DNA from: Sulfuricella sp. T08
GTDB taxonomy: Bacteria; Pseudomonadota; Gammaproteobacteria; Burkholderiales; Sulfuricellaceae
NCBI RefSeq assembly: GCF_000971475.1
Contig: NZ_DF967523.1
Location: 62,001-126,000, forward strand
Direction: 5' to 3'
Length of the DNA: 64,000 nt
Part shown: positions 21,883 to 32,991 of the stretch, one piece after another
Layout of the letters: the number at the start of each line of letters is the position of its first letter
Position numbering within the stretch: position 1 is the stretch's first letter
The notes under the pieces: model-generated
What the model saw: the letters and a program-made list of their open reading frames with translations, nothing else
What the model was told of the DNA's origin: nothing
The model's database searches: none
Made by a program: the position numbers and the translations under genes

Positions 21883-23151
21883 CTATTTAAGCTTTTTGAT
21901 ACCCAGTACATTGAGGACGTACTTTTCATAAATCGGCTCGGTAGTGCCTTTTTTCATTTTCCGCAAAAAGTACTTCTCGAAGGCGATCTTGGCCAAGTGC
22001 ACCCATTTTCCTTCCTTGAACCAGTTGACGTTGCGCGGTGGGATTTGCGGCAACGCCACGAAGGCTGCACCGGTGTCGCCGAAATCTGCCAGGCAGATGG
22101 CGTTCCAGGTGGCTTTATGATCGGGAACATTGCCGTCAAGAGTAGCGCATATGTTGTGAACTGTGGCACTGACCATGCTCTCAAGCATGTAGCCGGTCTT
22201 GGGTGCGCCGGTTGGCACCGGGGTGGATTCCACCGGAGGAATGTCGACGCATACGCCCACTGCGTAGATATTGTCGTACTCGGGATTGCGCTGGTAGGGA
22301 TCGATCAGGATAAAACCGCTCTGATTGGTCAGGCCATCAATGCCGAATACCGCGTCTACGCCCTTGAAAGCCGGCAGTATCATCGAATGTTTAAAGGGTA
22401 GTTCGTGCTCCTTTTTGACGTTTCCCATGTCGTCCAGTTCGGTGACGAACATCTTGCCCGGCGCGACCCGGGTGATTATGGCGTTGCATATCCACTTGAT
22501 GTGGCGCTCGCGCATGATTGATTCCATCATCCCCCTGGAGTCGCCCACTCCGCCCAAGCCGATATGGCCGACGTAGGGTTCGGGGGTGACGAAGGTCATC
22601 GGCACCTTGTCGCGGATCTTGCGTCTGCGCAGGTCGGTTTCCATGATCATGGCGAATTCGTAGGCCGGTCCGAAGCAGGAAGCGCCCTGCGCTGCGCCAA
22701 CGACAATCGGCCCGGGATCCCTGATGAACTGGTTCCATGCCTTGCCGGCTTCGACTGCGTGATCGACGTGACAGATGGAATGTGTATTCTTGCCCGGACC
22801 GATGCCTTCTACTTCGTCGAAGGCGAGTTTCGGCCCGGTAGCGATGACCAGAAAGTCGTAATCGACGATTTGGCCGTTCGTGAGTTCGATCTGGTCTTTT
22901 TTTGGATGCACCCGTTTTGCTGGCGTGGCGATCAGGTCGATGCCATTGCGCTTGAAATAGGGGGCGATCGGAATTTCGATGTCTTCGCGGGTGCGCCAGT
23001 TGACAGCGACCCAGGGGTTGGATGGGACGAAGTGGAAATTGGGTGAATCCGAGATTACGGTGACTTTGTCCCAAGGCCTGACCTTCTCCCGCATTTCATA
23101 CGCACACGTCATGCCACCGGTGCCTGCGCCGAGAATTACGATATGTGCCAT
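21883..23151 (-). CDS. sqr: Sulfide:quinone oxidoreductase, copy 2 (distal)
   Basis: A 422-residue FAD flavoprotein that oxidises sulfide to polysulfide and reduces quinone at the membrane face. The N-terminal dinucleotide fold is MAHIVILGAGTGGMTCAYEM. The three redox cysteines known from the Acidithiobacillus ferrooxidans enzyme (128, 160, 356) are matched by Cys127 (HSICHVDHA), Cys159 (GASCFGPAYEF) and Cys353 (WNAICLADFGDTGAAF). TPVPTGAPKTGYM and an amphipathic basic C-terminus (FEKYFLRKMKK) for membrane attachment are also present. The ATG at 23151 follows AAGGAA. It forms a unit with the 65-residue gene just upstream and is a close paralogue of the protein at 23482-24750. A FccB-type flavocytochrome subunit is less likely because no signal peptide exists. 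Confidence 0.9.
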   Translation of the reverse strand: MAHIVILGAGTGGMTCAYEMREKVRPWDKVTVISDSPNFHFVPSNPWVAVNWRTREDIEIPIAPYFKRNGIDLIATPAKRVHPKKDQIELTNGQIVDYDFLVIATGPKLAFDEVEGIGPGKNTHSICHVDHAVEAGKAWNQFIRDPGPIVVGAAQGASCFGPAYEFAMIMETDLRRRKIRDKVPMTFVTPEPYVGHIGLGGVGDSRGMMESIMRERHIKWICNAIITRVAPGKMFVTELDDMGNVKKEHELPFKHSMILPAFKGVDAVFGIDGLTNQSGFILIDPYQRNPEYDNIYAVGVCVDIPPVESTPVPTGAPKTGYMLESMVSATVHNICATLDGNVPDHKATWNAICLADFGDTGAAFVALPQIPPRNVNWFKEGKWVHLAKIAFEKYFLRKMKKGTTEPIYEKYVLNVLGIKKLK

Positions 23152-23215: not shown

Positions 23216-23413
23216 TTACCAGACGAAGACTCGGGCCATCGCTTCCAGTCCCTCGTCTACGATGGTCTGCAGGTCTTCAGGCGCGTCCTCGCTTTCCATC
23301 GCCAGGCGGGTATAAATTGACAGGGACTTCAGCGCACAGGCGATCTTGGAGACATTGCAGGCGGTCGCATCATCCAGGTTTACCCCTTCCCGCAGTTTCC
23401 ATTGGACGGACAC
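23216..23413 (-). CDS. 65-residue protein paired with SQR, copy 2
   Basis: A small acidic, helical protein of 65 residues starting at a GTG (MSVQWKLREGVNLDDATA) with AAGG 8 nt upstream. It is an unmistakable paralogue of the protein at 24814-25011: both share KIACALKSLS, MESEDAPEDLQ and IVDEGLEAMAR, and both end in FVW. No signal peptide or membrane helix is present. A cysteine at the same place (KIACALKS) is kept in both. It precedes an SQR gene by 64 nt, as does its twin. It starts right behind the terminator of the upstream SQR copy. The family is not one I recognise; a partner or regulator of SQR is inferred only from the repeated linkage. Confidence 0.8.
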   Translation of the reverse strand: MSVQWKLREGVNLDDATACNVSKIACALKSLSIYTRLAMESEDAPEDLQTIVDEGLEAMARVFVW

Positions 23414-23424
23414 TCTGTTCACCT

Positions 23425-23451
23425 TAAAAAAGAGGGCGGCCGAAGCCGCCC
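23425..23451 (-). terminator. Terminator of SQR copy 1
   Basis: On the minus strand GGGCGGC / GCCGCCC pair around TTCG and run into TCTTTTTT. It sits 31 nt beyond the SQR copy 1 stop and only 11 nt before the GTG of the second small protein, so the second unit must depend on read-through or a promoter hidden in the SQR copy 1 gene. Confidence 0.85.
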
Positions 23452-23481: not shown

Positions 23482-24750
23482 TTATTTTTTCTTCTTGATG
23501 CCGAGCACGCCGAGTACGTATTTCTCGTAAATCGGTTCGGTGGTGCCTTTTTTCATTTTCCGCAAAAAGTATTTCTCGAAGGCGATCTTGGCCAGATGCA
23601 CCCACTTGCCTTCCTTGAACCAGTTGACGTTGCGCGGCGGAATCTGCGGCAATGCCACGAAGGCGGCGCCGGTGTCGCCGAAATCGGCCAGGCAGATGGC
23701 GTTCCAGGTGGCCTTGAAATCCGGCTCCTTGCCGTCGAGTACTGCGCGGATATTGTGTACCGTGGCGGTGACCATAGTTTCGATCATGTAGCCGGTCTTG
23801 GGCGCGCCGGTTGGCACTGGAGTGGCTTCCACCGGCGGAATGGCGACACACACGCCGATTGCGTAAATATTATTGTATTTCGGGTTGCGCTGGAACGGAT
23901 CGATCAGGATGAACCCGCGCGGGTTGGCCAAGCCCTCGATCCCGAATACGGCATCCACGCCCTTGAAGGCCGGCAGCATCATCGAGTGCTTGAACGGCAG
24001 TTCGTGCTCCTTCTTGACGTTGCCCATGTCGTCCAGTTCGGTGACGAACATCTTGCCCGGCTCGACCTTGGTGACCTTGGCATTGCAAATCCACTTGATG
24101 TGGCGGTCGCGCATGGCGGACTCCATCAGTCCCTTGGAATCTCCCACGCCGCCTAGTCCGAGATGGCCGATATAGGGTTCAGCGGTGACAAAGGTCATCG
24201 GTACCTTGTCGCGGATCTTGCGTCTGCGCAGGTCGGTGTCCATGATCATGGCAAATTCATAGGCAGGCCCATAGCAGGAAGCCATCTGCGCGGCACCCAC
24301 TACGACTGGGCCCGGATCCCGTATGAACTGCTCCCATGCCTTGCCGGCTTCGACTGCGTGATCGACGTGGCAGATGGAATAAGTGTTTTTGCCCGGGCCC
24401 ATGCCCTCTACTTCGTCGAAGGCGAGTTTCGGGCCGGTGGCGATGACCAGGAAGTCATAGTCGATAATCTGGTCGTCGGTCAGTTCGATCTGGTTTTTTT
24501 CTGGGTGAACGCGCTTCGCCGGTGTCGCGATCAGGTTGATGCCCTTGCGCGCAAAATAGGGCGCGATGGGAATGGTGATGTCTTCCTTGGTGCGCCAGTT
24601 GACGGCGACCCAGGGGTTGGAAGGGGTGAATTGGAATAATGGTGAGTCTGAAATGACGGTAACCTTGTCTTCGGGGCGAACTTGCTCCCGCATTTCGTAT
24701 GCGCATGCCATGCCGCCGATGCCTGCTCCGAGAATTACGATATGTGCCAT
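23482..24750 (-). CDS. sqr: Sulfide:quinone oxidoreductase, copy 1 (promoter-proximal)
   Basis: A 422-residue SQR, same length as the distal copy and differing by scattered substitutions only, with no insertion or deletion seen. The FAD motif (MAHIVILGAGIGGMACAYEM), the three catalytic cysteines (YSICHVDHA, MASCYGPAYEF, WNAICLADFGD), the quinone-site region and the basic C-terminus (VLGVLGIKKKK) are intact, so both copies should be active. It is preceded by a 65-residue gene and by a sigma-54 type promoter at 25051-25066, which makes it the directly controlled copy. It transfers electrons from sulfide to the quinone pool. Confidence 0.9.
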   Translation of the reverse strand: MAHIVILGAGIGGMACAYEMREQVRPEDKVTVISDSPLFQFTPSNPWVAVNWRTKEDITIPIAPYFARKGINLIATPAKRVHPEKNQIELTDDQIIDYDFLVIATGPKLAFDEVEGMGPGKNTYSICHVDHAVEAGKAWEQFIRDPGPVVVGAAQMASCYGPAYEFAMIMDTDLRRRKIRDKVPMTFVTAEPYIGHLGLGGVGDSKGLMESAMRDRHIKWICNAKVTKVEPGKMFVTELDDMGNVKKEHELPFKHSMMLPAFKGVDAVFGIEGLANPRGFILIDPFQRNPKYNNIYAIGVCVAIPPVEATPVPTGAPKTGYMIETMVTATVHNIRAVLDGKEPDFKATWNAICLADFGDTGAAFVALPQIPPRNVNWFKEGKWVHLAKIAFEKYFLRKMKKGTTEPIYEKYVLGVLGIKKKK

Positions 24751-24813: not shown

Positions 24814-25011
24814 TTACCAGACGAAAATTCGGGCCATCGCCTCAAGTCCTTCGTCTACGATGGCTTGCAGGTCTTCCGGTGCGTCTTCGCTCTCCATCGC
24901 CATGCTTGTATAGGCTGACAGGGATTTCAGCGCGCAGGCGATCTTGGCGACTTCGCTGGCAGTCGCGTCGTCCATTTTTACACCTTCTTGCAGGATCCAA
25001 TTTGCGGCCAT
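24814..25011 (-). CDS. 65-residue protein paired with SQR, copy 1
   Basis: First gene behind the sigma-54 promoter. The 65 residues begin MAANWILQEGVKMDDATA and end GLEAMARIFVW; they appear helical, acidic and soluble. GGAG lies 8 nt before the ATG at 25011; an in-frame ATG at 25023 would add MEKK. Its twin at 23216-23413 has the same length and the same linkage to SQR. Residues kept in both copies include Trp5, Gly10, Cys27, the EDAPEDLQ segment and the terminal FVW. I cannot name the family; an SQR accessory or sulfur-binding role through the single shared Cys is speculative. Confidence 0.82.
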   Translation of the reverse strand: MAANWILQEGVKMDDATASEVAKIACALKSLSAYTSMAMESEDAPEDLQAIVDEGLEAMARIFVW

Positions 25012-25050
25012 TTTTTTCTCCATATTTAACGAGGTTGTAGTATGTCCATA

Positions 25051-25066
25051 AGCAATCAACGTGCCA
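25051..25066 (-). promoter_or_regulatory. Sigma-54 (-24/-12) promoter of the SQR locus
   Basis: The minus strand reads TGGCACGTTGATTGCT, which matches the sigma-54 consensus TGGCACG-N4-TTGCW at every defined position and with the exact GG-GC spacing. It lies 40 nt upstream of the first 65-residue gene. The divergent neighbour encodes a sigma-54 activator with an intact GAFTGC motif. Confidence 0.88.
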
Positions 25067-25117
25067 TAACTTTACCTATTGATTATTAATGATATTTAAT
25101 CGGTATTATTTTTGTGA

Positions 25118-25130
25118 TGACAGACTGTCA
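25118..25130. promoter_or_regulatory. Palindromic activator site 1 (TGACA-N3-TGTCA)
   Basis: TGACAGACTGTCA is a perfect 5-bp inverted repeat with a 3-nt centre, located about 52 nt upstream of the -24 element, where an enhancer-type site is expected. A second copy with the same arms lies at 25235-25247. Confidence 0.7.
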
Positions 25131-25141
25131 TGCCAATGTGT

Positions 25142-25229
25142 CAGTATAGTCATTCATGGGGAATGTTTTTTCGGCTTGCTGAGGCGATAACTTTTTGATT
25201 TGCATGGCGGCTTAGGCATGACTATACTG
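25142..25229. repeat. 12-bp inverted repeat framing the divergent regulatory region
   Basis: CAGTATAGTCAT at 25142-25153 is exactly inverted as ATGACTATACTG at 25218-25229. Each arm lies inside the corresponding TGACA-N3-TGTCA site, so the two operator blocks form one large mirror-symmetric control region of about 130 bp between the divergent genes. Confidence 0.7.
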
Positions 25230-25234
25230 TGTCA

Positions 25235-25247
25235 TGACAATTTGTCA
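25235..25247. promoter_or_regulatory. Palindromic activator site 2 (TGACA-N3-TGTCA)
   Basis: TGACAATTTGTCA repeats the arms of site 1 with another 3-nt centre. It ends 15 nt before the ATG of the sigma-54 activator, so occupancy could also repress the activator's own gene. Confidence 0.7.
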
Positions 25248-25262
25248 TGGAGCGGCGCCAAA

Positions 25263-26633
25263 ATGAACGATCTTTCTCTCGATTTGCAATCCCTGATCAA
25301 TATCCAGGAAAATCCATTCGTCTTGATCGATAAGGATTACCGTGTGGTTTCTGCAAATCATGCTTATTGTCAGGTATATGGCATGAGTCCGGATGAGATT
25401 GTGGGTCGCTTGTGTCACGAAATTTCTCATCATTCCTCCGTGCCCTGCCACGAGAACGGCGAGGTCTGCCCACACCAGAAGGTATTTGCAACCGGTGAGG
25501 CTTGCCAGGTACTGCATATTCATTACGACAATGATAATCGTGCCGAGCGGGTGCGCCTCAAGGGGTATCCGATTCACGGGCGGGACGGTTGCCTTTACTT
25601 GGGCGAGGCCATCGTGCCGTTGGGGTCTTCGGAAGAGCTGGATTGCGACGAAATGCGCATGATCGGTCATTCGCCCGCCTTTCTGGAGTGTGCGGACAAG
25701 CTGGGTCGTGTGGCCGAGTCGGATGCACCGATACTGCTGTATGGGGAAAGTGGCGTCGGCAAGGAACTGGCGGCGGAATTCGTACACAAGCGTTCGACCC
25801 GGGTGGGGCGTCCATATGTCTCAGTCAATTGCGCTGCTATCGCCGAATCGGTGTTCGAGAGCGAATTCTTCGGCCACGAGCGCGGAGCTTTCACGGGCTG
25901 CATCGGCCGCAAGCAAGGTTTGTTCGAGCTGGCGGATGGCGGCACGCTGTTTCTCGATGAAATCGGGGAAATTCCTCTTTCCATGCAACCCAAACTACTC
26001 CGCGTGCTGGAAACAGGTGAATACCGTCGGGTGGGGGGTACGGTAAACCTGACGGCGGATGTGCGGGTCATTTCCGCCACAAACCGAAATTTGCTGGAGC
26101 GGGTGGATCAGGGCTTGTTCCGCGAGGATCTGTACTACCGGATAGCGGGTATTGATGTCATGCTTCCATCGCTGCGCGAGCGCCGTCTAGATATTCCTGC
26201 GCTGGCTGATGCATTGCTTGCCCGCATCAGCGGGGTAGGGAAGAATGTGCCAAGATTTGCTGCAGACGCTATTTCACGCTTGATGAGCTATGATTATCCC
26301 GGCAATGTGCGCGAGCTGCGCAATGTTTTGCAGAAGGCGATTGCTTTGTCCGGCAAGGGGATGATTCATGCTAGGCATATTCAATTTGACAGCCTGAACG
26401 GGGACAAAGCACAGCCGGTAGCGCGGGAGAGGCTGTCTGAGGGTAATCCGGTGCTCCTCACCGTAGCGGTTACTCCCTCTTCCCTCTCTATTGAGGAAAT
26501 GGAAATCCGCCATATTTGCGAGCTGCTGAAACATCACGGCGGCCATCGCCGCACAGTGGCGGATATACTTGGCATCAGCGAGCGTACGTTGTATCGTAAA
26601 CTGAACCGCTACGGGCTGCATTCGGAGAAGTGA
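25263..26633 (+). CDS. Sigma-54-dependent Fis-family activator with Cys-rich PAS domain
   Basis: A 456-residue enhancer-binding protein. Residues about 1-120 form a PAS domain (ENPFVLIDKDYRVVSANHAYCQVYG) with an unusual cluster of Cys and His (RLCHEISHHSSVPCHENGEVCPHQK, TGEACQVLHIHY) suited to bind a metal or sense redox/sulfur. The AAA+ domain has Walker A LYGESGVGKELAA, the sigma-54 contact GAFTGC at residues 208-213, Walker B LFLDEIGEI and the arginine-finger region. The C-terminal Fis-type helix-turn-helix is GGHRRTVADILGISERTLYRKL. The ATG at 25263 has GGAG about 11 nt upstream. It is divergent from the SQR units and is followed directly by a Crp/Fnr regulator. Confidence 0.92.
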   Translation: MNDLSLDLQSLINIQENPFVLIDKDYRVVSANHAYCQVYGMSPDEIVGRLCHEISHHSSVPCHENGEVCPHQKVFATGEACQVLHIHYDNDNRAERVRLKGYPIHGRDGCLYLGEAIVPLGSSEELDCDEMRMIGHSPAFLECADKLGRVAESDAPILLYGESGVGKELAAEFVHKRSTRVGRPYVSVNCAAIAESVFESEFFGHERGAFTGCIGRKQGLFELADGGTLFLDEIGEIPLSMQPKLLRVLETGEYRRVGGTVNLTADVRVISATNRNLLERVDQGLFREDLYYRIAGIDVMLPSLRERRLDIPALADALLARISGVGKNVPRFAADAISRLMSYDYPGNVRELRNVLQKAIALSGKGMIHARHIQFDSLNGDKAQPVARERLSEGNPVLLTVAVTPSSLSIEEMEIRHICELLKHHGGHRRTVADILGISERTLYRKLNRYGLHSEK

Positions 26634-26634
26634 G

Positions 26635-27303
26635 ATGGACGATATCATCAAGGATCGGCTTCTCACCCTGTTTCCTGCGCTACGGGATACGCCCGCCGAC
26701 CTGCGGCTGCGGCTCGACCAGGAGGCCGCCTATATCGAAGCACCGGCGGGGGCAGTGTTGTTCGAATCACGCGGTCCGTGCCAGGCTTTCCCCATGCTTC
26801 TGTCGGGCTCGGTGCGCGTGGCCAAGGCTGGGGCGAATGGGCGCGAACTCCAGCTCTACCGTGTTCTGCCCGGTGAAAGCTGCATCATTACCAGCAGCTG
26901 TTTGTTGGGCAACGTCGCCTATCCGGCGCGCGGCGTGGCGGAGCATGACTTGACGGCGGTAGTGGTGCCGAGGGCGTTGTTTACCCAGTTGATCGAGCAG
27001 CATCCGCCTTTTCGCGCGTATATTTTCAACCTGTTCGGCGAACGCCTCGCCGACCTGATGCAACTGGTGGAAGAAGTTGCCTTTCACAAGCTCGATCAGC
27101 GTTTGGCGGCGCTGCTGCTGGCGAAGGGAGAAGTCGTCAATGCCACCCATCAGGGTCTGGCTGATGAACTCGGCAGCGTACGCGAGATGATCAGCCGGCT
27201 GTTAAAAAATTTTCAGGATCAGGGCCTAGTCGCTCTGGGCCGGGAACAGATCAGAATTCTCGATGCGGTCGTGCTGCGCAACATTGCGCAAGCTTCGCCG
27301 TGA
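26635..27303 (+). CDS. Crp/Fnr family transcriptional regulator
   Basis: A 222-residue regulator with a cyclic-nucleotide-binding-like beta barrel (IEAPAGAVLFESRGPCQAFPMLLSGSV) and a C-terminal winged helix (THQGLADELGSVREMISRLLKNFQDQGLV). Cysteines occur at GPCQAF and ESCIITSSCLLGN. The latter pattern is seen in Fnr-like regulators of sulfur-related genes but does not match the classical FNR cluster, so a thiol-based sensor is possible. It starts 1 nt after the sigma-54 activator stop and is clearly co-transcribed with it. Confidence 0.9.
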   Translation: MDDIIKDRLLTLFPALRDTPADLRLRLDQEAAYIEAPAGAVLFESRGPCQAFPMLLSGSVRVAKAGANGRELQLYRVLPGESCIITSSCLLGNVAYPARGVAEHDLTAVVVPRALFTQLIEQHPPFRAYIFNLFGERLADLMQLVEEVAFHKLDQRLAALLLAKGEVVNATHQGLADELGSVREMISRLLKNFQDQGLVALGREQIRILDAVVLRNIAQASP

Positions 27304-27386
27304 GTGTAACCAAAGTCACAGACATCCGGCGCCGTCGCGCTTAAGATTTGCATACCGTAAATATTTTTTGAATGGAGGATGTGAAA

Positions 27387-27599
27387 ATGAAAGCAAACGT
27401 GGGTGGAATTGACAGGGTACTTCGCATCGTGGCCGGGATAGTATTGCTGGCTTTGGTGTTCGTTCTCAAGAGCGAAGACGGCCTGTGGCTGTGGGGTCTG
27501 ATCGGCGTCGTGCCACTGGCCACCGGGCTGATGAACTGGTGCCCGGCCTATAGTCTGTTCGGCATGAGCACTTGCCAGGTGGAAGAAAAAAAGAAGTAA
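27387..27599 (+). CDS. DUF2892 inner-membrane protein
   Basis: A 70-residue protein with two hydrophobic segments (IDRVLRIVAGIVLLALVFVL and WLWGLIGVVPLATGLMNWCPAYSLFG), matching the DUF2892 family, which is also fused to rhodanese in YgaP. Two Cys residues (NWCPAYSLFG, STCQVEEK) follow the pattern of the family. The ATG at 27387 has GGAGG 8 nt upstream; the ATG at 27372 overlaps the ribosome site. In sulfur oxidisers it often accompanies sulfide or rhodanese genes, so a role with sulfide or sulfane sulfur at the membrane is possible. Confidence 0.85.
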   Translation: MKANVGGIDRVLRIVAGIVLLALVFVLKSEDGLWLWGLIGVVPLATGLMNWCPAYSLFGMSTCQVEEKKK

Positions 27600-27622
27600 A
27601 TCAGCCGGCCAGGTTTTAAACG

Positions 27623-27658
27623 AAAAGCGCAGGATTCTAGAGATCCTGCGCTTTTTTT
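27623..27658 (+). terminator. Terminator after the DUF2892 gene
   Basis: AGCGCAGGAT pairs with ATCCTGCGCT around a short loop and is followed by seven T residues; on the minus strand the opposite flank is also T-rich, so it can act both ways. Stem and flanks resemble the clpA terminator at 37827-37864. Confidence 0.9.
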
Positions 27659-27666
27659 CGGTCAGG

Positions 27667-27729
27667 CTAAACGCTGACGGCCTTTTCAATGCCGCCCTTC
27701 GGGCCACCTTGCTGGCGGCAAGATTTCAT
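27667..27729 (-). other. 20-codon ORF ending like ClpA, beside a shared terminator
   Basis: On the minus strand ATG at 27729 opens a 20-codon frame MKSCRQQGGPKGGIEKAVSV with TAG at 27667-27669, followed within 9 nt by the hairpin at 27623-27658. The tail GIEKAVSV-stop and the next 30 nt closely resemble the end of clpA (SEKAVSV-stop) and its terminator. No strong ribosome site is seen. It may be a small conserved peptide gene, or a short duplicated clpA tail. The rest of the 270 nt between the DUF2892 gene and ttrB shows nothing else I recognise beyond the ttrB ribosome site. Confidence 0.4.
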
Positions 27730-27869
27730 CGGGTGCCATAAAATCCGATTCATGTATATAGGTTATTTTGTGTAGTCGACCGCAACAAACATCCAATATC
27801 TTCAAGGCGCCTGCTCTCCTATCATGCACATAAGCCAATAAGGCTCGCTTACAGCAAAAGGAGGGTCAA

Positions 27870-28586
27870 ATGATTCAATCCCGACGCAATTTCTTGCGCG
27901 CCTTGCCGGCCATCACCGTCGGAGCGGCGTTGGCTCCGGCTCCGGCAATCGCTTCGGCGGCAGGGGAAGAGGAGGGCAAGCATCGCTGGGCGATGGTGGT
28001 CGATGTGCAAAAATGCATCGGCTGCCAAGCCTGTACGGTGTCCTGCATCATGGAAAATGCCGTGCCGGAGAACAGTTTCCGCACCATCGTTTCCACTTAC
28101 GAGGTGCACGAAGGTAAGCATACCGGCACCTACATGTTGCCGCGCTTGTGCAACCATTGCGCTAATCCGCCCTGTATTCCGGTGTGCCCTGTGGGTGCAA
28201 CCTTTCAGCGCAAGGACGGCGTGGTGGTAGTCGATGGCGACCGGTGCGTCGGCTGCGCCTACTGCGTGCAGGCTTGCCCTTACGACGCGCGCTTCATCAA
28301 CCACGAAACCGGCAAAGCGGATAAATGCACTTTCTGCGCACATCGGGTTGATGCCGGGCTGTTGCCGGCCTGTGTCGAAACCTGCGTGGGCGGAGCGCGC
28401 ATCTTTGGTGACCTCAACAATCCGAACAGCAAAGTCCGCCACCTGGTCGATCAGAACAAGATGAAAGTGCTGAAACCGGAAATGGGCACACAACCCCATG
28501 TATTTTATCTTGGCCTGGACGAGCGCTTCCAGGGGCGCGTCGAGGGCGAAGGTACTTTATGGCAACCAAGCGGACACGGAGCTTAA
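27870..28586 (+). CDS. ttrB: Tetrathionate reductase iron-sulfur subunit TtrB
   Basis: A 238-residue electron-transfer subunit with a Tat signal (SRRNFLRALPAITVGAAL) and four [4Fe-4S] cysteine groups: CIGCQACTVSC, CNHCANPPCIPVC, CVGCAYCVQAC and CTFCAHRVDAGLLPACVETC. It carries electrons from the quinol-oxidising TtrC to the molybdenum subunit TtrA on the periplasmic side. A strong AAAAGGAGG precedes the ATG. The gene order ttrB-ttrC-ttrA and the adjacent ttrS/ttrR genes are those of the Salmonella ttr locus, which decides for tetrathionate over the related polysulfide/thiosulfate reductases. Confidence 0.9.
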   Translation: MIQSRRNFLRALPAITVGAALAPAPAIASAAGEEEGKHRWAMVVDVQKCIGCQACTVSCIMENAVPENSFRTIVSTYEVHEGKHTGTYMLPRLCNHCANPPCIPVCPVGATFQRKDGVVVVDGDRCVGCAYCVQACPYDARFINHETGKADKCTFCAHRVDAGLLPACVETCVGGARIFGDLNNPNSKVRHLVDQNKMKVLKPEMGTQPHVFYLGLDERFQGRVEGEGTLWQPSGHGA

Positions 28587-28589
28587 ATC

Positions 28590-29729
28590 ATGGACAGCCA
28601 AATCATCGAAGTACTCAACGTTACGCGCGAAACCGCCTGGCTGCCGTGGGCAGTGCAGTATTTTTTCCTGATCGGGCTCAGTTACGGCAGCTTTATGCTG
28701 ACACTGCCGTATTTTGTCTTCGGTCGCGCACAGTACGAAAAGCTTGGCCGTTTGGCCCTGCTCGGTGCGCTGGCCTGCGGACTGACGGCGCCCGTCGCCC
28801 TGCTGGCCGACCTGCACGGTCCGGGGCGTTTCTTGAATTTTTACCTGCATTTCCAGCCTCAATCCTGGATGTCGTGGGGTTCATTCTTTATCCCGGTTTA
28901 CCTTGTCGGCTTGCTGCTCTATGCATGGTTGGCGTTGCGCGGAGATTTTGCCGTGCAGGGCCAAGGCGGCGACTCATTACTGACCCGCCTCTATCGCCTT
29001 GCCGGGCGTGGCGGCGTAGCGCCGCGAATGGCCATTTCCGCCGCAGCCTTGCTGACTCTGGTGGGCGCCGTGCTGGTGGCACTATATACCGGCATGGAGG
29101 TGATGGTTGTTCACGCCCGCCCGCTGTGGAATACGGCTTTCCTGCCACTGCAGTTCGCGGCAACCGCCTTCGCCGGTGCAATCGGTTTGGCCCTGTTGTT
29201 CAACCGGTTTGTCGGTGACCATGATACCCAGCTGGAAATTGGCCTCAACCGCCTTCTTGTGCTCGCTCTAGCGGTAGTACTGACGCTGGGCGGGGGATGG
29301 CTTTTCGTCAGCCTGTCCGGGGTGAGTCCCTCGCACAGCGCCGCCTTCAGCCAGGTGGCAGGCATGCCGCAATGGCAGCTGACCGCAGTGTGGGCGGTGC
29401 TGGCAACGATCCTGCCGATGGCGCTGGCCATCTGGCGTCCGGCCTCAAGCGGCCTGATTACCGGGCTGATTGCCGTGCACAGCGCATGGATGATGCGCTG
29501 GACCATCTTCATCGGCGGCCAGTCTATCCCTAAAACCGGCGCCGGTCTTTATGATTACCATCTGCCACTCGGCGGTGACGGCCTGCTCGGCATAGTCGGC
29601 ACGCTGGGTTTGTGGATCGCGCTGCTGGTATTGATGGTGGATTATTTGCCATGGGCCGGACAGGCGTTTGCCAGCCGCAACAAAAAAGAAACCAACGCAC
29701 TCGCCACCAGCGCGATTGCTCAGCACTAA
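28590..29729 (+). CDS. ttrC: Tetrathionate reductase membrane subunit TtrC (NrfD family)
   Basis: A 379-residue polytopic membrane protein of the NrfD/PsrC family with about nine helices (YFFLIGLSYGSFMLTLPYFVF; LACGLTAPVALLADL; AAALLTLVGAVLVALYTGMEV; LAVVLTLGGGWLFVSL; GIVGTLGLWIALLVLMVDY). It oxidises quinol and passes electrons to TtrB. The start lies 3 nt after the ttrB stop with GGAG in the ttrB tail. LADLHGPGRFLNFYLHFQPQSWMSWGSF is the family's signature loop. Confidence 0.88.
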   Translation: MDSQIIEVLNVTRETAWLPWAVQYFFLIGLSYGSFMLTLPYFVFGRAQYEKLGRLALLGALACGLTAPVALLADLHGPGRFLNFYLHFQPQSWMSWGSFFIPVYLVGLLLYAWLALRGDFAVQGQGGDSLLTRLYRLAGRGGVAPRMAISAAALLTLVGAVLVALYTGMEVMVVHARPLWNTAFLPLQFAATAFAGAIGLALLFNRFVGDHDTQLEIGLNRLLVLALAVVLTLGGGWLFVSLSGVSPSHSAAFSQVAGMPQWQLTAVWAVLATILPMALAIWRPASSGLITGLIAVHSAWMMRWTIFIGGQSIPKTGAGLYDYHLPLGGDGLLGIVGTLGLWIALLVLMVDYLPWAGQAFASRNKKETNALATSAIAQH

Positions 29730-29739
29730 GGAGATTAGC

Positions 29740-32700
29740 ATGGAAGACAAACGTCGTTCGTTTCTGCGCAAGGCCGCGATAGGCGGCGGTCTCACCGCTT
29801 TTGCCGCGGGCTTCTCGACCACGGCCGGAAGAATGCTCGACCACGTGCTTGGCAAGGACCAGCCGAAGCAGCGGTTGAATGGTAATTCGCTGGCACCCGA
29901 GTTCAGCGTAAATCCCGCCACCGGTGCGCTGAGCATCAACCCGGAACAGCAGGTCAGCTACACCATGTGCACGGGCTGCACCACCTTCTGCGGCGTGCGG
30001 GTGCGCATCGACAAAAAAACCGGCAAGGTGTTGCGCGTGGCAGGAAATCCGTACAGCCCGATGTCGGCCGATCCGCCGCTGCCATTCCAGACGCCGATCC
30101 GCGAAAGCTTCGTGTCGCTCACGCGCTATGAGGAAAAAGGCCTGGCGGGGCGATCCACCGCCTGCGGGCGCGGTAATGCCGTGCTCGAGCAAATGGATTC
30201 GCCGTTTCGCGTGCTGGCCCCGATGAAGCGCGTCGGCCCGCGCGGCAGCAGCCAGTGGCAGCCGATCGAGTTCGACCAGTTGATCAAGGAGATCGTCGAA
30301 GGCGGCAACCTGTTCGGCGAGGGCGAGGTGCAGGGATTACGCGCCTTGCGCGACCTGGAGACGCCGATCGACGCGCAGCAGCCCGAACTCGGCGCCAGGG
30401 TCAATCAGGTCGGCCTGATGGCCAGCACCAACGAGGGCCGCCTTGCCTTTGTCGACCGTTTTATCAAGCAATCCTACGGCAGCCTCAACATGGTGGGACA
30501 CGGCTCCTACTGCGGCGGTGCTTATCGCAGCGGCTCGGGGGCGATGTTCGGCGACATGAAGAAAATGCCGCACGCCAAGCCGGACCTGGAAAACGTCGAG
30601 TTCTGCATCTTCATCGGGACTGCGCCCGGCAATGCTGGCAACCCATTCAAGCGACAGGGCACGCTGATTGCCAAGGCGCGCTCGGGCAATAAGCAGTTCA
30701 GCTACGTGGTGGTCGATCCGGTGCTGACCAATGCCGACAGCTTGGCCGCCGGCGACCGCAGCCGCTGGGTGCCAATCAAGCCCGGCACCGACGGCGCCTT
30801 GGCGATGGCGATGATACGCTGGATTATCGAGCAGGAACGCTACGACCGGCATTACCTCGTCCAGCCCAACCTCAAAGTGGCCGAGGCGTCCGGCGAAGCG
30901 AGCTGGAGCAATGCCACGCACTTGGTGATCGTCCAGCCGGGCCATGCGCGTGACGGCCGCTATTTGCGCGGTTCCGACTTGGGCATGGTCTTCCCCGAAG
31001 AAGAACGCTACAAGGACAAGGACCCCTTCGTCGTGTTCGATCAGGTGGCGAAGAAGCTCGTCGTTCACACTGAAGCCAGGGGTGTGGCAGAGCTGTTCTT
31101 TGACGGCGAGGCACAGGTCGGTGCGGATACGCTCAAGCTCAAAAGCGCGATGAGCCTGCTGCGTGAAGAAGCGTTGAAGCACAGCCTGGCCGACTATTCC
31201 GCCGCCTGCGGTGTGCCGCTGGAGATCATCGAGGGACTGGCGCGCGAATTCACCAGCCATGGCAAACGTGCCGCTGTCAACGCGCATGGCGGCATGATGT
31301 CCGGCAGCGGATTTTACAACGCCTATGCGGTGGTGATGCTGAATACTCTGATCGGCAATCTCAACCGCCAGGGGGGTACCCTGGTCAGTGGAGGCAGTTT
31401 CAAGGATGTCGGTGAAGGGCCGCGCTACAATCTGGAAAATTTTGCCGGCGAGGTCAAGCCGAGCGGCATCCCGATCGGACGCAACGTGCCCTACGAAAAG
31501 ACTTCCGAGTTCAAGCGCAAAAAGGAAGGCGGCAAGGCCTACCCGGCGCAGGCACCGTGGTATCCGAATGCCCCCGGCCTGGCGTCCGAATGGCTGACCA
31601 GCGCGATCAACGGCTATCCCTATCCGCTCAAGGCCTTGATCCTGTGGAGCTGCAATCCGCTTTACGGCGTGCCGGGACTGCGCGCGCAAATCGAAAAAGA
31701 TCTGGTCGACCCGAAGAAGCTGCCGCTGATCGTGGCAGTCGACCCATTTATCAATGAAACCTCGGCCTTTGCCGACTATATCGTGCCGGATTCGCTGCTC
31801 TATGAAAGCTGGGGCTGGGCTGGCGCCTGGGGTGGGGTGGCGGTCAAGATGAGCACGGCGCGCTGGCCGGTGGTCGAACCCAAGGCCCAGAAGCTGCCGG
31901 ATGGCCAGGCGATCGGCATGGAAACCTTCTTCATCGCGCTGGCCAAGGCCATGCAATTGCCCGGCTTCGGCCCGACCGGCCTCGCCGACAACGAAGGCCA
32001 GCCCTGCTCGCTGGAGCGCCCCGAGGACTGGTATCTGCGCGGGGGTGCGAATATCGCGTGGCAGGGCAAGACGCCGGTGCCGGAAGCGAGCGACGAGGAT
32101 ATCGAACTGTCCGGCGTGGCCCGTATCCGTCCCCTGTTGGAAAAAACACTCAAGCCCGAAGAGTGGCGCAAGGTGGCTTTCATGCTGGCGCGGGGCGGAC
32201 GGTATCAGAACTACAAGGAAATGTTCGGCCTGCGCTTACCACCTCCGGCCGATCCCAAAGCGCATGCCGCGCCAGCAGGGGCCGTCTTGGCCAAAACCTC
32301 CACATCTGCCGGCATCAAGTCGCTGGCAGCGGCGACGGTGGCAGGCGCTGCCGTCCACGCGGTGAAGGAGGAAGCGCCTTACCCATCTGACTGGGCCACG
32401 CATCGCTACACCAAGCCCATGATGCTCTATAACGAAAACGTTGGCACCACCAAAAATAGTTTCACCGGCAAGCGTTTTTCCGGCACTCCATCGTGGCACG
32501 AACCAGCTTTCGCCGACGGCACGCCGGTACGCAAGAAGTACCCCGAGGCGGAATGGCCGCTGCAATTGATCAGCTACAAATCGCCGCTGCAAAACTCTTA
32601 CAGCATCGGTGCACGGCGCTTGCGTGGCATTCACCCCGACAACCCGGTGGCGCTGCATCCGGACGATGCGGCTCGACTGGGCTTGCACAGCGGCGACCAG

Positions 32701-32991
32701 GTCTATCTCGAAACCCCGGGAGGGCGCGCCAAGGCGACGGTGATTCTGCGCCACGGCGTGCAGCGCGGAGTAGTTGCGGTTGAGCACGGTTTTGGCCATC
32801 GCGAGCTCGGTGCACGGGCGCATCGCATCGGTGACAAAGTGCAGCCGCACGAGCCGGCGATTGCTGCCGGCATCAATCTCAATGATATGGGATTGAGCGA
32901 CCCGACCCGCAACGGACGCAACGTGTTCGTCGACCCAGTGGCGGGAACCACTGTGCGGCAGGGTTTGCCGGCGCGTCTGGTGCGGGCGTGA
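29740..32991 (+). CDS. ttrA: Tetrathionate reductase molybdopterin subunit TtrA
   Basis: The catalytic subunit, 1083 residues, exported by a Tat signal (MEDKRRSFLRKAAIGGG). The FS0 cluster ligands are Cys77, Cys80, Cys84 (MCTGCTTFCGVRV) and Cys142 (TACGRGN). The molybdenum ligand is probably Cys258 in GHGSYCGGAYRSGSGAMFG, a motif typical of TtrA. IGTAPGNAGNPFKRQG, NAHGGMMSGSGFYNAY, LWSCNPLYGVPG and a C-terminal molybdopterin-dinucleotide domain (NPVALHPDDAARLGLHSGD) complete it. It reduces tetrathionate to two thiosulfates. The ATG at 29740 has AAGGAG 6 nt upstream. At about 800-860 there is an Ala-rich insert (PKAHAAPAGAVLAKTSTSAG) before the last domain. Confidence 0.9.
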   Translation: MEDKRRSFLRKAAIGGGLTAFAAGFSTTAGRMLDHVLGKDQPKQRLNGNSLAPEFSVNPATGALSINPEQQVSYTMCTGCTTFCGVRVRIDKKTGKVLRVAGNPYSPMSADPPLPFQTPIRESFVSLTRYEEKGLAGRSTACGRGNAVLEQMDSPFRVLAPMKRVGPRGSSQWQPIEFDQLIKEIVEGGNLFGEGEVQGLRALRDLETPIDAQQPELGARVNQVGLMASTNEGRLAFVDRFIKQSYGSLNMVGHGSYCGGAYRSGSGAMFGDMKKMPHAKPDLENVEFCIFIGTAPGNAGNPFKRQGTLIAKARSGNKQFSYVVVDPVLTNADSLAAGDRSRWVPIKPGTDGALAMAMIRWIIEQERYDRHYLVQPNLKVAEASGEASWSNATHLVIVQPGHARDGRYLRGSDLGMVFPEEERYKDKDPFVVFDQVAKKLVVHTEARGVAELFFDGEAQVGADTLKLKSAMSLLREEALKHSLADYSAACGVPLEIIEGLAREFTSHGKRAAVNAHGGMMSGSGFYNAYAVVMLNTLIGNLNRQGGTLVSGGSFKDVGEGPRYNLENFAGEVKPSGIPIGRNVPYEKTSEFKRKKEGGKAYPAQAPWYPNAPGLASEWLTSAINGYPYPLKALILWSCNPLYGVPGLRAQIEKDLVDPKKLPLIVAVDPFINETSAFADYIVPDSLLYESWGWAGAWGGVAVKMSTARWPVVEPKAQKLPDGQAIGMETFFIALAKAMQLPGFGPTGLADNEGQPCSLERPEDWYLRGGANIAWQGKTPVPEASDEDIELSGVARIRPLLEKTLKPEEWRKVAFMLARGGRYQNYKEMFGLRLPPPADPKAHAAPAGAVLAKTSTSAGIKSLAAATVAGAAVHAVKEEAPYPSDWATHRYTKPMMLYNENVGTTKNSFTGKRFSGTPSWHEPAFADGTPVRKKYPEAEWPLQLISYKSPLQNSYSIGARRLRGIHPDNPVALHPDDAARLGLHSGDQVYLETPGGRAKATVILRHGVQRGVVAVEHGFGHRELGARAHRIGDKVQPHEPAIAAGINLNDMGLSDPTRNGRNVFVDPVAGTTVRQGLPARLVRA

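Follow-up and report, generated by a model that had tools for sequence, protein, structure and literature searches.

A predicted FisR-type sigma-54 switch at a duplicated sulfide:quinone oxidoreductase locus of Sulfuricella sp. T08

What switches on the sulfide:quinone oxidoreductase (SQR) genes in a lithotroph that lives on sulfide? In Sulfuricella sp. T08, sqr lies divergent from a gene for a sigma-54 activator, and no pdo gene is found beside that activator. We examined a 64,000-nt stretch of DNA that contains the locus (the window; all coordinates are positions in it) together with the 3.42-Mb genome. A sequence-only reading of this DNA had proposed sulfide- or redox-triggered sigma-54 activation of SQR. 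As a prediction, this proposal is strongly supported by conservation and by homology to the regulator FisR. The same reading took such a control mode to be undescribed for SQR. This is wrong, as publications from 2017 (Cupriavidus) and 2020 (Acinetobacter) describe activation of sqr by FisR and sigma-54.

Two studies set the background. FisR of Cupriavidus pinatubonensis JMP134 reportedly activates sulfide-oxidising genes including sqr with sigma-54. Three cysteines are reported to sense sulfane sulfur, C53 and C64 to form a tetrasulfide, and both ATPase activity and sigma-54 transcription to be raised (Li et al. 2017, doi 10.1111/mmi.13725). For Acinetobacter baumannii, work from 2020 found that deletion of fisR abolishes sulfide induction of the pdo-sqr operon (PMC7315123).

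The sqr units and the elements that face them

The sqr side of the locus reads as follows, starting from the activator:

24814-25011, minus strand: small conserved protein, first gene of the sqr operon (65 aa, one Cys)
23482-24750, minus strand: SQR copy 1 (422 aa), Acidithiobacillus ferrooxidans type
23434-23451, minus strand: intrinsic-terminator-like hairpin between the two small-protein/sqr units, GGGCGGC-TTCG-GCCGCCC with a T run
23216-23413, minus strand: second copy of the small protein, with a GTG start
21883-23151, minus strand: SQR copy 2, identical to copy 1 at 366 of 422 residues (87%)

The first small protein is placed at these coordinates because a GGAG Shine-Dalgarno sequence precedes the ATG at 25011. 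No Pfam family scores above its cut-off for this protein. A 65-aa protein also adjoins sqr in several Sulfuricella, Thiobacillus and Gallionellaceae relatives. The SQR type is assigned with E = 1e-162 to 3sz0, and C127, C159 and C353 of copy 1 align with the catalytic residues C128, C160 and C356 of the A. ferrooxidans-type enzyme (PMC6335251); all three are present in copy 2. Two close relatives share the tandem duplication. Because the hairpin between the units is strong and terminator-like, the second sqr copy may depend on read-through.

Beyond the activator, on its 3' side (26635-32991), lie a Crp/Fnr-type regulator (26635-27303), a YgaP-like membrane protein and the cluster for a TtrB/TtrC/TtrA-like molybdoenzyme of three subunits, which scores below the tetrathionate reductase cut-offs.

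The gap between the first small protein and the activator holds these elements:

25051-25066, minus strand: sigma-54 -24/-12 promoter TGGCACGTTGATTGCT, matching 12/12 consensus positions and facing the small protein and SQR
25072-25084, minus strand: IHF-like site AATCAATAGGTAA with one mismatch, between the promoter and site 1
25118-25130: site 1a TGACAGACTGTCA, likely FisR upstream activating site
25131-25143: site 1b TGCCAATGTGTCA, second unit of the putative activating site, in tandem with site 1a (13-bp period)
25142-25153 and 25218-25229: left arm CAGTATAGTCAT and right arm ATGACTATACTG of an inverted 12-mer
25188-25200, minus strand: exact IHF consensus AATCAAAAAGTTA
25199-25228, plus strand: predicted sigma-70 promoter of the activator, TTTGCA (25199-25204), 18 nt, TATACT (25223-25228)
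25230-25248 (core 25235-25247): site 2 TGTCATGACAATTTGTCAT, predicted to be a FisR operator that covers the predicted start of the activator's transcript
25263-26633, plus strand: FisR-type sigma-54 activator (456 aa; PAS, AAA+ and Fis HTH; C51/C62/C69)

The full-consensus promoter that had been read on the minus strand is borne out. A pattern search for exact TGGCACG-N4-TTGCT returns this site as the single match in the window and eight matches in the 3.42-Mb genome, while sigma-54-like strings with two mismatches occur in the window at chance frequency. The genome has a single sigma-54 gene (rpoN). From the -12 C at 25052, the SQR operon is predicted to start at ~25040.

Both TGACA-N3-TGTCA palindromes of the sequence-only reading are exact (25118-25130 and 25235-25247); next to the first, without a gap, lies a copy with one mismatch. 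Two tandem copies thus make up site 1. Their centres, ~84 bp (site 1a) and ~97 bp (site 1b) upstream of the point where SQR transcription is predicted to begin, are at an ordinary place for an enhancer. In a pattern search, ATGACA-N3-TGTCAT has no exact copy elsewhere in the genome. The two IHF-like matches in the gap, against ~0.1 expected, are suggestive only.

Two extensions of the putative regulon were considered. Control of the neighbouring Ttr-like cluster by FisR through the same palindrome is unsupported, as the window holds no further copy at up to one mismatch. A wider FisR regulon in the T08 genome is likewise unsupported; there are three other one-mismatch palindromes, and the two that were checked lack a strong sigma-54 site nearby.

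Conservation of promoter and sites

We compared 18 loci from two genera of the family, the T08 locus included, all oriented alike (the family set). SQR is divergent from the activator in 18/18, and each locus carries a -24/-12 site facing SQR with 10-12 of the 12 consensus bases. A palindrome with at most one mismatch lies 23-30 bp before the activator ATG in all 18. For site 1, the gap between the promoter site and the left edge of a palindrome of this quality is 67-70 bp in 12 of the 18 loci and one 13-bp unit more (80-82 bp) in three; the other three (L015, L018 and L019) have only degenerate or differently spaced half sites. When the loci are anchored on the promoter, half-site columns recur at 68/69, 76, 81/82 and 89. 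Promoter and activator start stand at distances that differ by ~65 bp from one genus to the other; site 1 thus keeps its place relative to the promoter, and site 2 relative to the activator.

A wider set holds 41 loci with the divergent arrangement, taken from publicly available genomes and MAGs of beta- and gammaproteobacteria; three of these loci are also among the 18. A -24/-12 site of at least 10/12 faces SQR in 39 of these 41 FisR-SQR loci. The background is 37 of 3186 windows of 200 nt (~1%), taken from the same contigs and mostly coding. Where activator and SQR are not divergent, a 10/12 site precedes SQR in 2 of 7 loci only, and the promoter rule therefore holds for the divergent arrangement only. 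The palindrome is confined to Sulfuricella relatives and some neighbours. Of the elements that the sequence-only reading wanted looked for in related genomes, the promoter recurs in 18/18 and 39/41 loci, site 2 in 18/18 and site 1 in 15/18, but most Thiobacillus loci have the promoter without a recognisable palindrome.

Conservation also clarifies the activator's own side of the gap. The palindromes had been described as embedded in mirror-image 12-bp repeats. The repeats are real, with arms that are 100% complementary, but they lie beside the palindromes, not around them. The right arm holds TATACT, the -10 region of the activator, and the left arm, at site 1, is kept in the nearest relatives only and not in the related genus, which explains the mirror 12-mer. 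We rejected it as a separate binding element, since conservation is confined to the arm at site 2 and is that of a -10 box. The sigma-70 promoter scores 9/12, and the scan taken alone is not above chance; NATACT stands directly before site 2 in 18/18 family loci. As the predicted start of the activator mRNA falls within site 2, negative autoregulation is the simple prediction, and autorepression through this site is likely. The earlier suggestion that site 2 overlaps the activator leader and serves autoregulation gains support from the conserved -10 box.

The activator and its likely signal

By Pfam, the activator combines PAS_4/PAS_9, Sigma54_activat and HTH_8 domains, which is the FisR architecture. 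Its AAA+ motifs are GESGVGKE, GGTLFLDE and the contact loop GAFTGC, in which residue 213 is Cys. The GAFTGC motif noted as intact is present, but it is a variant of the canonical GAFTGA. Close relatives share GAFTGC, Thiobacillus-type relatives have GAFTGS or GAFSGS (the Thiobacillus branch mostly GAFSGS), and the C. metallidurans CH34 homologue has GAFTGA. Across the SQR-linked FisR proteins, the final Ala of the loop is replaced by Cys or Ser.

The PAS domain, which had been called crowded with Cys and His, carries C51, C62 and C69 in CHEISHHSSVPCHENGEVCPH, and it is also rich in His (CHEISHH). Every orthologue of the family has three cysteines at FisR spacing, as does the Cupriavidus homologue; as the triad was part of the search pattern for some loci, the independent count is that of the remaining loci only. 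The CH34 homologue, numbered from its MDRPTT start, is divergent from a persulfide-dioxygenase-like gene and SQR (pdo-sqr) and has its cysteines at 53, 64 and 71. C51, C62 and C69 align with these, at spacings of 11 and 7. The third regulatory cysteine of C. pinatubonensis FisR is reportedly C71.

The window activator and the C. metallidurans homologue are 40% identical. In a tree whose Cupriavidus reference is this CH34 homologue, not JMP134 FisR, the clade of the window protein and its SQR-linked relatives is sister to that of the CH34 protein, apart from seven other EBPs of the T08 genome. Because of this identity and the separate clade, the activator is, by sequence comparison, a FisR homologue and not a strict orthologue. 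For the same reason, we infer the signal from the FisR relationship.

The FisR-like proteins also appear beside other genes. In a Tibeticola genome (L128:3033-4604) and a Nitrospirae MAG (L132:3194-4852), a Cys-triad activator and the gene for cytochrome bd subunit I (Pfam Cyt_bd_oxida_I) form a divergent pair, and strong sigma-54 sites point towards cyd. On a Pseudoalteromonas plasmid (L052), a homologue adjoins cydB/cydX. This suggests a FisR branch that may control a sulfide-tolerant oxidase.

The reading we favour, with a probability of about 0.8, is a FisR-type switch in which sulfane sulfur triggers sigma-54-dependent activation of sqr and FisR limits activator synthesis. Sulfide oxidation would raise cellular sulfane sulfur in the form of per- and polysulfides. 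These would modify the PAS-domain cysteines C51, C62 and C69, in the way described for Cupriavidus FisR, and release the AAA+ ATPase. Activator bound at tandem site 1 would then contact sigma-54 RNA polymerase at 25051-25066 via DNA looping, possibly aided by IHF. This would open the promoter of the first small protein and sqr1, and the second small protein and sqr2 would be reached by read-through of the terminator. The activator itself would be made from the sigma-70 promoter with its predicted start in site 2, where bound FisR would limit its own synthesis. Counting against this reading are the sister-clade position at 40% identity, the non-canonical GAFTGC loop, the Thiobacillus loci that mostly show the promoter but no recognisable palindrome, and the sulfide response of A. 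baumannii FisR, which lacks these cysteines. A bolder version, which we regard as a long shot, adds a separate lithotrophic FisR subfamily that goes with A. ferrooxidans-type SQR and lacks the persulfide dioxygenase. Sulfane sulfur would here be an energy-substrate signal instead of a stress signal, and the GAFTGC Cys of the Sulfuricella branch would be a second thiol gate at the sigma-54 contact.

Sigma-54 control of SQR could be real while the PAS domain senses another cue, such as redox state, oxygen, a metal, or thiosulfate or tetrathionate handled by the adjacent reductase-like cluster. PAS domains bind many ligands, this one has many His residues besides its Cys, and the TtrB/TtrC/TtrA-like cluster adjoins the activator locus. 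In addition, A. baumannii FisR responds to sulfide without the regulatory cysteines, so cysteine is not the sole possible sensor (PMC7315123). We nevertheless consider such a cue unlikely, if not negligibly so, given that the FisR cysteine spacing is kept in all family orthologues and the Cupriavidus homologue and that such cysteines reportedly form a tetrasulfide in C. pinatubonensis.

Doubt could also fall on the DNA sites. It is quite improbable that sites 1 and 2 serve as operators for a different regulator, such as the Crp/Fnr-type protein, with FisR binding elsewhere: the palindrome has no other exact genome copy, as expected of a local regulator, it keeps fixed distances from the sigma-54 promoter and from the activator start, and one locus (L054) keeps the sites with no Crp match within its examined stretch. 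What speaks for another regulator is that the TGTCA/TGACA palindrome is not recognisable at some FisR-SQR loci, most of those in Thiobacillus among them. That the elements are merely consensus-like strings thrown up by an AT-rich spacer is scarcely credible. Two-mismatch sigma-54-like strings are indeed no rarer or commoner in the window than chance, but the site before SQR has zero mismatches, a fixed orientation, fixed spacing and the conservation described above in both sets of loci.

Relation to known systems

FisR with sigma-54 control is known from other bacteria; its form and the layout of its sites in sulfur lithotrophs have apparently gone undescribed. A description of such an arrangement in Sulfuricella or Thiobacillus was not found in the literature searched, which left most subscription journals outside. 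The FisR-type switch proposed here would extend FisR control from sulfide-detoxifying heterotrophs to sulfide-living lithotrophs (Sulfuricella, Thiobacillus, Gallionellaceae and Sulfuriferula relatives). With it comes a predicted operator map, in which a tandem activating site lies at a fixed promoter distance and a likely autorepression site lies over the activator start.

The closest comparison is with Cupriavidus. Like C. pinatubonensis FisR, the window activator has an N-terminal sensor, an AAA+ domain and a Fis HTH, and its cysteine spacing is the same (51/62/69 vs 53/64/71). Unlike Cupriavidus FisR, its partner is a tandem-duplicated A. ferrooxidans-type SQR with a small protein and no adjacent PDO. 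It differs from the C. metallidurans homologue in belonging to a sister clade and in having GAFTGC in place of GAFTGA. A. baumannii FisR shares the divergent activator and a predicted sigma-54 promoter before the sqr genes, but it lacks the regulatory cysteines and serves detoxification in a heterotroph (PMC7315123).

Other regulators reach a similar end by other means. SqrR of Rhodobacter, BigR of Xylella and Acinetobacter, and CstR of Staphylococcus likewise place sulfide oxidation genes under sulfane-sulfur-responsive control, but they are repressors from other protein families and act independently of sigma-54. TspS/TspR of Acidithiobacillus caldus resembles the T08 locus as a sigma-54-dependent control of sulfur oxidation genes in a lithotroph; it is, however, a two-component system beside sox genes, whereas the predicted T08 switch is a PAS-Cys sensor beside sqr (PMC6335251).
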